Shown: one piece after another, positions 59,815 to 64,000 of the stretch
Layout of the letters: every line of letters starts with the position of its first letter
Numbering within the stretch: the first letter of the stretch is position 1
Assembly (NCBI RefSeq): GCF_000378825.1
Contig: NZ_KB900388.1
Span: forward strand, 109,578-173,577
DNA length: 64,000 nt
Direction: 5' to 3'
Source of the DNA: Salinispora vitiensis
Lineage (GTDB): Bacteria; Actinomycetota; Actinomycetes; Mycobacteriales; Micromonosporaceae
Made by a program: the position numbers and the translations under genes
The notes under the pieces: generated by a model
Told to the model about the DNA's origin: nothing
Databases searched by the model: none
The model's input: only the letters and a program-made list of their open reading frames with translations

Positions 59815-60249
59815 CTACGCCGAGGGTGATGCGTCCATGAGTGATGCCCCTTGGCCAGTAATAGAAAGGTGGAAAATGGCGGCGAGGTAGTCGACTCCGG
59901 CGTGGGTGACGTCCTCAAACTCGGCCCAGTCCACGGCCACCACATCGCAGCTGGTGTACGGGTATGCCTCAATCGCCTGTTTGACCGAGGCGGGTCCGGC
60001 CCCGGCCGTGTAGGGGGCGATGGCGCGGCGGGTGATCGGGTCTTTCGGCCGCGCGAGGAGCACGATCACCGGCAGGTCCGGGTAGCGGTCGGAGCCTCGC
60101 TGGTAGGTGCCGTCGTAGTCGATGCGCTCCGGTAGCCCGATGACCGCCGCGGGTGAGGCGATCCGCTCGGTGCCCCACTGCGGCACGTTCAATCCGGTGA
60201 TGGTTTGGAGCGCGGTACGCAACTCGGCGGCGACATCATCCAAATCCAC
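59815..60249 (-). CDS. Tail terminator-like phage protein
   Basis: A 144-residue protein; the helix-strand layout and position between connector and tail tube suggest a tail terminator (gpU-like). VDLDDVAAELRTALQTITGL opens it, from GTG 60249, three bases after the connector stop. Family resemblance only. Confidence 0.65.
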   Translation of the reverse strand: MDLDDVAAELRTALQTITGLNVPQWGTERIASPAAVIGLPERIDYDGTYQRGSDRYPDLPVIVLLARPKDPITRRAIAPYTAGAGPASVKQAIEAYPYTSCDVVAVDWAEFEDVTHAGVDYLAAIFHLSITGQGASLMDASPSA

Positions 60250-60252
60250 GAC

Positions 60253-60834
60253 TCACCCCACCCTCCGGCGCCGGGCCAGGCCGGCAAGGGTCGTGGACAC
60301 GTCCGGGTCCAGGCGGGCCAGCAGCCGCATCTCGGAGCCGGCCTCCGGGCTACCTGCGATTCCGTAGGGGCTGTCTCGGCGCGTTGACCAGCGCGACACC
60401 TGCAACCGGGCCGCAGCGGAGACTTGCGTCGGTACCGCCGTCCAGCCCCACCCGGAGGTCGCCACGGCCACGGGAGCGTCGGGGCAGTCGGTGAAGCCCA
60501 GCCGCTCGTACGGCCGCCCGCTGTCGGGCGCGTCGTCGGGCAGCAAAACCGCCCCCGCGTCGGCGTAGGGCTGGCCGTTGACGGTCAGTCCGGTCGGGTC
60601 GTGCACGTCGTCGGTTTCCAGCAGCCACAGCGCGGATACCGCGTCATACACCGCCGGCCGCCGGTAGGTGCGGGTCGTCAACGCGTCGGTGCGCCCGAAT
60701 TGGCGGTTGCACCGCTTGTCGATGGCGCGGGACGCGGCCGTGCACCAGATCGCCAGCTCCGCCAGGTCAACGCCGGGGGCGCGGACGAACTCCGCCGCGT
60801 CCTCGGCGGTGAGGTAGTCAGGCGTCCAGGCCAC
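60253..60834 (-). CDS. Head-tail connector (adaptor) protein
   Basis: A 193-residue protein. The start WTPDYLTAEDAAEFVRAPGV and the helix WCTAASRAIDKRCNRQF are typical of gp6-like connectors that sit under the portal. GTG 60834. Its first codons overlap the coiled-coil gene by 17 bases. Confidence 0.8.
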   Translation of the reverse strand: MAWTPDYLTAEDAAEFVRAPGVDLAELAIWCTAASRAIDKRCNRQFGRTDALTTRTYRRPAVYDAVSALWLLETDDVHDPTGLTVNGQPYADAGAVLLPDDAPDSGRPYERLGFTDCPDAPVAVATSGWGWTAVPTQVSAAARLQVSRWSTRRDSPYGIAGSPEAGSEMRLLARLDPDVSTTLAGLARRRRVG

Positions 60835-61004: not shown

Positions 61005-64000
61005 TCAGACCGTGGTGTAGATGACCTGACGGACACCGTCGATGCGGGTGTTCGCGAACGCCTTGTAGCCCCAAATCCCGACATCGACGAACGCGACGCG
61101 GTATTCGAACTGGAGTCGCTGCGGGGCAGATGCCCAACCGTGCACGTCGTCGGGGTTGAACAGCCAACTGTTCATCGCGCCAGGACCGGCCGCGCCCAGC
61201 GCCCACGAGGGGACACCAGTGACGCCCCCAAGGTCGAGAGTTCCCCAGCGGGGGGCGGCGGTGCCGGTGGCGTTACGCGGGGCCAGCGGCGGGTACAGCC
61301 GGCGGCCGGTGGAGTCGACCGCGGCCACGAACGCCTGATACAGGTTCTGGTGAACGGCGAACGCCCGGAAACGGTGCCCACCCTTGACGAACTGCAACCC
61401 TGCCATCGCCGCGGACCAGGCGCCGTCGAGCACGTCGTCGACCACGGGCGGAGTGTCACCGGATGAGCCGAGGTTGATGTCCACGGCCGCGGTAAGGGTG
61501 TTGAGGAAGGCGCCGGTTGCGGTCTCCAGCTCCTCGTACCACTCGCGTTGCATCTGCCGCCAGATCAGCCCGGACAGCTGCGGGTTTCCGCCCTGCTCCC
61601 ACGCCTCCCGGGTGATCTCTACCTTCCCGGACAGCGGGGTGGGGGTGATGGTCTGGCTGGTCGCCTTGAACGTGCCGGAGGTCGGCTCCACACGCTCGGT
61701 GTGATCGGAGACAAGGCCGCCGCTGGTGGCGAACTTCGGTACCACGAATGGGGTCACGTCGCCGAGGGTGCCCCGGTGGACGAAGTCCCACAGCGGTGTC
61801 GCGTACTCCAGGTCATCGACGTACATGTCGGGCCGCTGTCGGGGCGGGTTCACCGCCGCCGCGTCACTGGTGTCGACCGTGAACTCCGTGCGTCCGAGTG
61901 GAGGCTTGGCGCGCATCGCTCCGTCGAACTGCGACCGCATGAACGCCTGCGCCCGCTCCAGGGCCTCACCGTCACCACGTGAACCCGCGATCAGGTCAGT
62001 CGAGAAGTCGTGCTGACCGCGGGTGAGGTTGCCGGCCCGGTCGAACCGGTACGGCAACTCCTCGCGAACCTGGCTGGCGGTGATGGTGCGGCGGGTCGGG
62101 TCGACCGGCTGCCGCTCCTGCTCCTGCCCGCCCTGCGGGGCGGGGGTTAGCTGCGGTACGCCGAGCAGTGCACCGAGCTGCCCGCCACGGATCAGCCCGT
62201 CGACCTGCTCGGCTGACAGCACGAGTCCGCCGTCGGGCACTGCTGGTGCCTCCGGCCGCGCCGGGGGTGACTGCGCGGCCACCAGTGCCTGGATCGCGCC
62301 GGGCCGGGTCAGTAGCGCGGTCATCTGGTCCTGGTCCAGCTGCACACCGGCGGCCGGCGGCGTGGTCTGAGCCTCGGTCGGCTCCTGCTCGTCCGGCATC
62401 CCGGATCGCCCCTTTCCATGTACGTTTCTGCTCGCGGCCACCTTGGTCACGCGGGCGTCGTCAAACGCGGGCATGGGCGTTGAGGATGTCTCCCGCCAGT
62501 GCGCCCGCAACACGTCGTAGACCTGGTCCTTGTCGTCCCACACGACATCGCCGTCGGTGGGGTTGATCGAGAAGTCGACGCCGACGGAGAGCCCGTCGTA
62601 GAGACCGTGCTGGGCGTCGTACAGCAGCTGGTCACGCTCAAGCTTGGCCGGGCTACCGTCCGGCCCGTCGAGTACCTGCAACTTGACGACCGGGCCATTA
62701 CGGGTCTCTGTCACTGACGCGGTCACACCGACCGGTAGGTGGTGGTCGCGTAGGTGCTTGATCCGTGACACATTCGCGTACTGAAGTGACCCTGGCTTGA
62801 ACCGAAACGCCAGCCCGTACTTACGGACAACCTTGTTGTACGGCACGGCCAGCCCGGTAATCGTGCGCTTCTCGACGTCGACCTTTGCCGGCTCGGCGCC
62901 GCCCGCGAAGTCGCCACCGGCGAACGTCATAGCCGGACCATCGTCAGTGAAGCGGGCACCGGCGAGCCGAGACGCATCGACGTTTCTCTGGTTAATGTCC
63001 CCTACAGCCGGCGGCGGTTCGACCGGTGCGGAGCTGGCGGCTCGGGCTACCACGTCAGCCGAGATGCCGGCCTGCTCGCCGATCCATTGCTCGTCGACCA
63101 CACCCATGTCCTTAAGCGCCTTCCAGTAGGAGGCCTGGGCGGCGGCGTCAGGCTTTAGGTAGTCGGTCAGGTCGAAGGCGACGCGGTGACCACGACGGGT
63201 TACGTCGCCCATCGACAGCCGCTGTGTGATGGCCTGCATGAACGGCGCGTACGTTTCGTTGATCTTCGAGGTCCGGCGGTCCTGCGCGTTGAAATACGTC
63301 CGCGATGTCGTCGACACCCCGAGGTCTTCGGGATCCACCCCGAGCCCGTTGGCGATCTCCAGCGTGACCTGGCGTTGCAGCTCCACCAGCTGCACTTCGG
63401 CCGGCGACGGGGTGGCCACGTCGACCCGCTGCACGCTCGACGGGATCCAGCCGGTACCGCCCGCCTTGCGCGCCGCCTTCCATTCGGCGAGGAAGGCGTC
63501 GATCTCGTCGTCGCCCATCGGATCCACCGACGGATCAGCGCCGTCGGTGAAATAGTCCGTGGGGCGCGGATTGTCGGCGTAGGTGGCGGCCAGCCGGTCC
63601 AACAGCAAGGCTCGTCGGATCGCCCGCGCGTTCGCCGACAGCAATCCCGGGTTCGGGGAGTCGAAACGGATCACCCGGTCAACCGGGGTCGGCTCACCAT
63701 CAACCCACACGACCCGTACACCACGCGCGTCCACACCGGATGGGAAGGGGTTCACCGCGCCCGTCGGCTCGGTCAGGCTCACCGTGCGCACGTCGAGGTG
63801 CCGTGCGGCGACTGGGAAACCGGCGAAGTCCTGCGCGGTGATCAGCCACCATGAGATCCCGTCGAACGCCAAATCCTCGATCGTTTGAGCGAGGGTGACG
63901 ACGTTCGGCAGGTCCGGGTCGATCTGCTCTAGAAACGGGCTACGAACAATCTCTAGGCCCTTGTACGACCGCAACGGCAACGTCGCAATCGAGCACAACG
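61005..64000 (-). CDS. Portal - prohead protease - HK97 major capsid fusion, N-terminus beyond window
   Basis: One unbroken frame that runs off the right edge (997 codons from the first possible start at 63998; in truth it continues). Counting from there: 1-330 portal (LEIANGLGVDPEDLGVSTTS); 365-525 prohead protease with TGLAVPYNK, HLRDHHLPVG (His415/419/420) and GLSVGV (Ser471); 535-700 a Gln/Pro-rich delta/scaffold-like region; 700-997 major capsid (YATPLWDFV, TITPTPLSGKVEITREAW). ATG 62399 (Met534) could start a separate 464-residue capsid protein, since an AAAGGGGCG stretch lies upstream. Three head genes in a single frame is unusual. Confidence 0.88.
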   Translation of the reverse strand, partial: LCSIATLPLRSYKGLEIVRSPFLEQIDPDLPNVVTLAQTIEDLAFDGISWWLITAQDFAGFPVAARHLDVRTVSLTEPTGAVNPFPSGVDARGVRVVWVDGEPTPVDRVIRFDSPNPGLLSANARAIRRALLLDRLAATYADNPRPTDYFTDGADPSVDPMGDDEIDAFLAEWKAARKAGGTGWIPSSVQRVDVATPSPAEVQLVELQRQVTLEIANGLGVDPEDLGVSTTSRTYFNAQDRRTSKINETYAPFMQAITQRLSMGDVTRRGHRVAFDLTDYLKPDAAAQASYWKALKDMGVVDEQWIGEQAGISADVVARAASSAPVEPPPAVGDINQRNVDASRLAGARFTDDGPAMTFAGGDFAGGAEPAKVDVEKRTITGLAVPYNKVVRKYGLAFRFKPGSLQYANVSRIKHLRDHHLPVGVTASVTETRNGPVVKLQVLDGPDGSPAKLERDQLLYDAQHGLYDGLSVGVDFSINPTDGDVVWDDKDQVYDVLRAHWRETSSTPMPAFDDARVTKVAASRNVHGKGRSGMPDEQEPTEAQTTPPAAGVQLDQDQMTALLTRPGAIQALVAAQSPPARPEAPAVPDGGLVLSAEQVDGLIRGGQLGALLGVPQLTPAPQGGQEQERQPVDPTRRTITASQVREELPYRFDRAGNLTRGQHDFSTDLIAGSRGDGEALERAQAFMRSQFDGAMRAKPPLGRTEFTVDTSDAAAVNPPRQRPDMYVDDLEYATPLWDFVHRGTLGDVTPFVVPKFATSGGLVSDHTERVEPTSGTFKATSQTITPTPLSGKVEITREAWEQGGNPQLSGLIWRQMQREWYEELETATGAFLNTLTAAVDINLGSSGDTPPVVDDVLDGAWSAAMAGLQFVKGGHRFRAFAVHQNLYQAFVAAVDSTGRRLYPPLAPRNATGTAAPRWGTLDLGGVTGVPSWALGAAGPGAMNSWLFNPDDVHGWASAPQRLQFEYRVAFVDVGIWGYKAFANTRIDGVRQVIYTTV

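Follow-up and report, generated by a model that had tools for sequence, protein, structure and literature searches.

We report, from a lineage of small actinobacterial prophages, a phage head gene in which an HK97-type portal, a prohead protease of probable S78 type, a delta region and an HK97-fold capsid are encoded in one frame, together with a conserved start signal, nested just past the protease, from which delta-capsid would be made alone and which very probably supplies the additional capsid protein required for a head. The gene lies at the right edge of the window, by which we mean the whole 64,000-nucleotide stretch of DNA that was analysed (G000:C1:109578-173577, within a 5.1-Mb genome). 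Judged from its sequence and those of its relatives, the fusion is a real and conserved variant of the small-siphophage head module, and its unusual part is the portal. The best explanation of this arrangement, and one that we consider probable, combines a leaderless start for the polyprotein, a nested start for delta-capsid and a built-in protease that would separate the parts. Searches of a library of open-licence papers turned up no description of a portal-protease-capsid fusion, or of a nested capsid start in these genes.

One frame from portal to capsid

The window holds 997 codons of the gene (61005-63998, minus strand) without a stop, which a preliminary description of the visible part had read as portal, prohead protease, delta and capsid in a single polypeptide. 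That reading holds. The frame runs on across the right edge as far as a GTG 208 bases outside the window (contig position 173785, window-equivalent 64208), and the full ORF comes to 1067 amino acids (L002:2582-5785, minus strand; window-equivalent 61005-64208). In a profile search of the whole genome, PF04860 matched this ORF alone. The parts of the gene and two of its neighbours are located as follows.

61005..64000, minus strand: portal-protease-delta-capsid ORF, in-window part; open frame, with its GTG at window-equivalent 64208
63096..63992, minus strand: portal domain (residues 73-371); PF04860 at 48.6 bits against a cut-off of 39.1; fold match 3kdr
62898..63047, minus strand: portal-protease linker (residues 388-437); low model confidence, without a Shine-Dalgarno
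62430..62882, minus strand: prohead protease domain (residues 443-593); phrog_80, E 8.5e-7; conserved Ser and His
61005..61883, minus strand: HK97-fold capsid region with stop codon (about residues 776-1067, an inferred boundary); phrog_2263 and 1ohg
60253..60834, minus strand: head-tail adaptor, downstream neighbour; phrog_442, E 1.1e-11
59815..60249, minus strand: tail terminator, downstream neighbour; phrog_17840, E 4.5e-16

The ORF is confirmed as an HK97-type portal, a protease of probable S78 type, a delta region and an HK97-fold capsid in one frame. Its Phage_portal match lies above the family cut-off, and the phrog_2263 'major head protein' family covers residues 440-1066 (E 2e-34); in an alignment of 19 homologues both families are matched by 19 of 19, with the Pfam capsid models reaching at most three members in total (PF25209 in two, PF05065 in one). 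The predicted structure (mean pLDDT 59, pTM 0.36) has three folded parts joined by low-confidence linkers at about residues 388-437 and 581-731. Foldseek searches with this single model retrieved the HK97-family portal 3kdr (E 5.7e-17) and a further portal, 8cez, as well as the HK97 capsid 1ohg (E 3.8e-9) and 2fs3, so that the portal body and the capsid domain of the preliminary description are both borne out. Its serine-type protease fared less evenly. The domain matches the 'head maturation protease' family phrog_80, and of the two residues singled out in the preliminary description, which we take to be the catalytic ones of an S78 prohead protease, the serine (Ser541) is conserved in 86 of 86 clusters and the histidine in 82 of 86; however, the window's own protein falls below the Pfam model (Peptidase_S78, PF04586, which finds 14 of the 19 homologues at E<=0.01) and scores 19.9 bits against a cut-off of 59 with the NCBIfam protease model.

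The gene is embedded in a recognisable phage neighbourhood. A large terminase ORF (L002:5866-7455) ends 80 bases upstream, with an integrase beyond it, and genes for a head-tail adaptor, tail terminator, major tail protein, neck protein, tape measure and endolysin lie on the 3' side. A PHROGs scan of ten neighbours named eight, left one without a match and assigned one only to families that have no structural name. The element sits in a bacterial chromosome, as would be expected if these were domesticated or decaying head genes, for example those of a gene transfer agent or a dead prophage, but we regard this as very unlikely: the named neighbouring genes, integrase and terminase included, are open and PHROGs-matching, the domains are under purifying selection, and relatives are present in many viral contigs.

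Conservation of the fusion and its relation to known head genes

For the ORFs read and clustered below, 'fused' means a single ORF whose match to the query starts ahead of residue 300 and runs past residue 800; counts of fused and separate arrangements exclude the matches G009, G016, G035, G179, G184, G189, G228 and G352. Within the genus, 10 of 160 genomes (our own included) carry the fusion, at 11 places. A sample of 200 genomes from the family added five fused cases in other genera (G272, G216, G176, G255, G249) and two separate ones (G202, G252), the order (249 genomes) one fused case in another family (G443) and one separate (G503), and the class (296 genomes) one fused case in another order (G727) and two separate (G644, G671). 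The best 80 of 447 relatives in IMG/VR, a sample biased towards full-length fusions, supplied 76 new sequences, all 76 fused. Altogether, 96 fused ORFs from genomes of three actinobacterial families and from IMG/VR were read, some of them ending at contig ends, and they form 86 clusters at 90% identity. In every one of the 96, the matches to portal, protease and capsid share a single frame, which rules out a sequencing error or a frame-joining indel, a refutation that the preliminary description had named for itself. Two alignments were made: A1, of 19 rows, with L062 left out because its start was not placed, and A2, with 81 of the 86 clusters, the ORF not being closed in five.

The linker that joins portal to protease varies from 33 to 75 amino acids, with 33 distinct lengths among the 86 clusters, and its mean pairwise identity over 600 sampled pairs is 26%, as against 52% for the portal and 47% for the protease. 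It is nevertheless free of in-frame stops in all 86 clusters, while the same DNA contains stops in 56 of 86 in the +1 frame and in 40 of 86 in the +2 frame, and 11 pairs pooled give the linker a dN/dS of 0.49, compared with 0.31 for the portal body. Reading through the portal-protease junction therefore appears to be under selection.

In a portal tree of 42 rows, the fused ORFs form one clade (support 83/87), which 85% of 200 bootstrap trees recover. Two changes are required in the protease-capsid tree (43 rows), with the separate L058 and L059 nested beside the fused L060, and a single origin of the fusion without later change was accordingly rejected. One fusion followed by a later split, or recombination, is a possible account of this placement.

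In phage HK97, portal, protease and delta-capsid are three separate genes. The ORF described here shares with HK97 the three homologous parts and the portal and capsid folds (8cez, 1ohg), but unlike HK97 has them in one gene. A closer comparison is offered by small-genome siphophages (Arthrobacter AN, AX and FE, Microbacterium EE, Gordonia CW and DM, and Rhodococcus RRH1), in which, according to two reports (PMC7302621, PMC5513430), protease, scaffold and capsid are fused in one gene. The preliminary description had held that these functions normally occupy two or three genes; the protease-delta-capsid fusion on its own is already known, and it is the addition of the portal that is unusual. 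The order and joining of protease, delta and capsid are common to both kinds of gene, as are similar neighbours. Each of 18 small phages that we compared has protease-delta-capsid as one ORF, and the portal is separate in all 17 with a portal CDS in the examined stretch (that of EricDab falls outside it), often with an ATGA overlap between the portal and fusion genes, and in RRH1 and several of the Gordonia phages a lysin gene intervenes. The separate, adjoining portal gene that characterises these fusions accompanies neither our ORF, whose portal is in frame, nor any of the 96 ORFs read. Among phage records, 193 match the visible 997 residues, and none covers 80% of them.

Two observations were made on these phages in passing. 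The capsid-protease fusions annotated in Gordonia phage Emperor (L032:3151-5010) and in EricDab (L034:2109-3995) carry about 120 extra N-terminal residues, followed by GAAAGGA and an ATG that seems to precede the protease; the start as annotated, or an additional fused part, may merit attention. Pseudomonas phage Hadban (L043; OR067381), recorded from P. aeruginosa, has portal and capsid proteins that hardly differ from their counterparts in Arthrobacter phage Adaia, with end branches of about 0.02 or less, and its host label may be wrong.

Start signals in the fused gene

The preliminary description had suggested internal initiation at the methionine that it numbered Met534 and placed, correctly, at 62399; this is Met604 of the full protein. 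The features of this putative nested start, whose surroundings in the window read GGAAAGGGGCGATCCGGGATG, are listed here.

62409..62417, minus strand: Shine-Dalgarno-like GGAAAGGGG of the nested start, read from the sequence
62397..62399, minus strand: nested start codon ATG (Met604; Met534 of the visible part); start codon and Shine-Dalgarno in 86 of 86 clusters
61005..62399, minus strand: predicted nested delta-capsid product, 464 amino acids and stop; deduced from the nested start, with a stand-alone homologue in G158

All 86 clusters have a start codon (ATG in 70, GTG in 16) placed 11-19 amino acids beyond the protease motif, with a Shine-Dalgarno duplex energy of -5.0 kcal/mol or lower (median -8.95). 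In the 70 clusters with an ATG within 25 amino acids, a Shine-Dalgarno core precedes that ATG in 70 of 70, as against 18% of 1642 in-frame ATGs, and the nested ATG has the strongest Shine-Dalgarno of its ORF in 42 (3.8 expected). The 16 GTG clusters show energies of -5.6 to -11.9 kcal/mol at the same place, and their valine at this site is encoded by GTG in 16 of 16 although GTG makes up 50% of valine codons, an outcome whose probability, were the rows independent, would be about 1.5e-5. The first 20 ORFs had already given the same picture, with an in-frame ATG 10-18 amino acids past the protease motif in 20 of 20, bearing the strongest Shine-Dalgarno in 13 (1.2 expected). Synonymous resampling reached significance in 6 of the 20 ORFs taken singly, with a Fisher P of 3.7e-4 computed over related sequences; for the window's own nested start (energy -7.3) the resampling P is 0.18. 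The small number of singly significant ORFs perhaps reflects local residues such as Gly-Gly, which spell a Shine-Dalgarno themselves. The protein around the nested start is poorly conserved (30% identity), and RNA folding around the start in the window was no weaker than in shuffles, with nothing unusual seen. Taken together, these sequence signals strongly support the predicted internal initiation at this codon.

Such starts have precedents. The abundant, protease-free product of lambda C/Nu3 and of herpesvirus UL26/UL26.5 arises from a start that lies within a longer frame. The conserved in-frame start codon with Shine-Dalgarno that marks a nested gene of the lambda type is found here in 86 of 86 clusters, but the nested product in those systems is a scaffold, whereas here it would include the capsid, and the long product begins with a portal. 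Elsewhere, a unit like the predicted product is encoded independently: G158 (L057:1970-5159) encodes a PF04860 portal of 411 amino acids, a Clp-type protease of 222 amino acids (PF00574) and a stand-alone delta-capsid of 431 amino acids (PF05065), the last 44% identical to the delta-capsid of the window.

Two further features touch on this region. The capsid module occurs with different protease types, as the Clp-type enzyme of G158 illustrates. Within a few residues of the predicted start of the nested product, 40 of the 86 clusters have a CxxC...H...C motif, for example MPCTHCGQVHAEGVAC (L078, L084, L085, L089), which resembles a small metal site at the beginning of delta; the remaining clusters, the window's own included, are without it.

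It is conceivable that the nested start does not function and that everything is made as polyprotein, with surplus portal and protease discarded and heads built from fused subunits or after cleavage. Both linkers are open in all 86 clusters, which makes at least some production of the polyprotein probable. We nonetheless think this account improbable, since 86 of 86 clusters keep a start codon with a Shine-Dalgarno at this position, through exchange of ATG and GTG and with valine written only as GTG. A similar signal, read by eye, is also present in 15 of the 18 two-domain fusion phages, where a Shine-Dalgarno, in many cases GAAAGGA, and an ATG follow the protease; in this set no nested start was seen past the protease in Emperor or EricDab and that of Yavru is weak, so the feature is not universal there. 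An automatic rule ranked the first Met past the protease first in 9 of the 18 (2.9 expected); in Noely, BlueFeather and Yavru the first Met by this rule lies about 70 amino acids further on. In L058 and L059, which have separate genes, a nested start can likewise be read by eye, though unscored.

The beginning of the portal is of a different kind. Its start could be placed in 63 of the 86 clusters, the other 23 being dropped because of a contig end or because there was no start codon followed by Gly. Shine-Dalgarno pairing at these starts is weak (median -1.1 kcal/mol; below -5 in 5 of 63), and a TANNNT box ends 6-8 nucleotides before the start codon in 54 of 63; 500 shuffles gave 2.1 on average and 9 at most, and at the nested start the box is present in 0 of 86. 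Leaderless actinobacterial transcripts have their -10 box at about this distance, some 7 nucleotides, from the start codon. The box, mostly without a Shine-Dalgarno, suggests that the portal start would lie on a leaderless mRNA. The window's own ORF start is ambiguous, with TAGGGT and also G-rich sequence that resembles a Shine-Dalgarno (-7.0). For the two-gene phages, starts of the leaderless type were considered and rejected, the box being present at just 3 of 17 portals.

At the portal-protease junction, a separate start for the protease was likewise considered and rejected, as no Shine-Dalgarno is found there. In 39 of 86 clusters an ATG occurs no more than 8 amino acids from the junction, and in these the best energy averages -1.9. 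In separate relatives the protease-capsid gene begins at about this position, and the ATG of some fused ORFs may therefore be a relic of the old protease-gene start. This perhaps still visible start would suit a reading in which the proteins work separately and the fusion of the frames is a side effect of overlapping genes, with re-initiation at the old protease and capsid starts and a polyprotein of no importance. We give this reading a low probability: the junction lacks a Shine-Dalgarno, the residue aligned to the window's junction Met is Leu in 38 of 86 clusters and Met in 18, and the frame of the linker is kept under coding constraint. What the clusters present, so far as sequence can tell, is a continuous conserved frame and a conserved nested start signal, with no start signal at the portal-protease junction.

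A model for head assembly

The combination of a leaderless polyprotein start, a nested delta-capsid start and a built-in protease would work as follows in the single-cistron head gene of a small temperate siphovirus, ordered portal, prohead protease, delta or scaffold, and major capsid. From the first start, the GTG or ATG of the portal, on an mRNA probably beginning at that codon, the full polyprotein would be made in modest amounts. From the second, nested start, with its own Shine-Dalgarno just past the protease, delta-capsid would be made alone and in excess. Portal and protease would then come from the polyprotein only and delta-capsid from both starts, which would give equal amounts of portal and protease and a surplus of capsid. 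Polyprotein and delta-capsid would co-assemble, placing portal and protease in equal numbers at the nucleating vertex, and the protease would subsequently trim delta and cut the portal free. The ratio of products, the co-assembly and the cleavage are what we infer. The built-in protease is likely to process the linkers, since twelve capsid domains could hardly stay attached to a portal ring; a search by eye for a conserved cleavage motif in the linkers recognised none.

More tentatively, the polyprotein might itself nucleate the head: it would contribute one portal ring, a set amount of protease and the initial capsid subunits, all covalently joined, and would take itself apart once assembly is complete, with leaderless and Shine-Dalgarno-led nested starts working in one cistron. 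This extended view we hold to be possible but rather less probable than its alternatives combined.

How phages place one portal ring and a dose of protease in each head is a long-standing question. A link between portal, protease and capsid, offset by a nested capsid start, would make that question testable by point mutations in a single gene. If the nested start is real, the genes annotated as 'major capsid and protease fusion' in many cultured small siphophages probably hide a second product as well.
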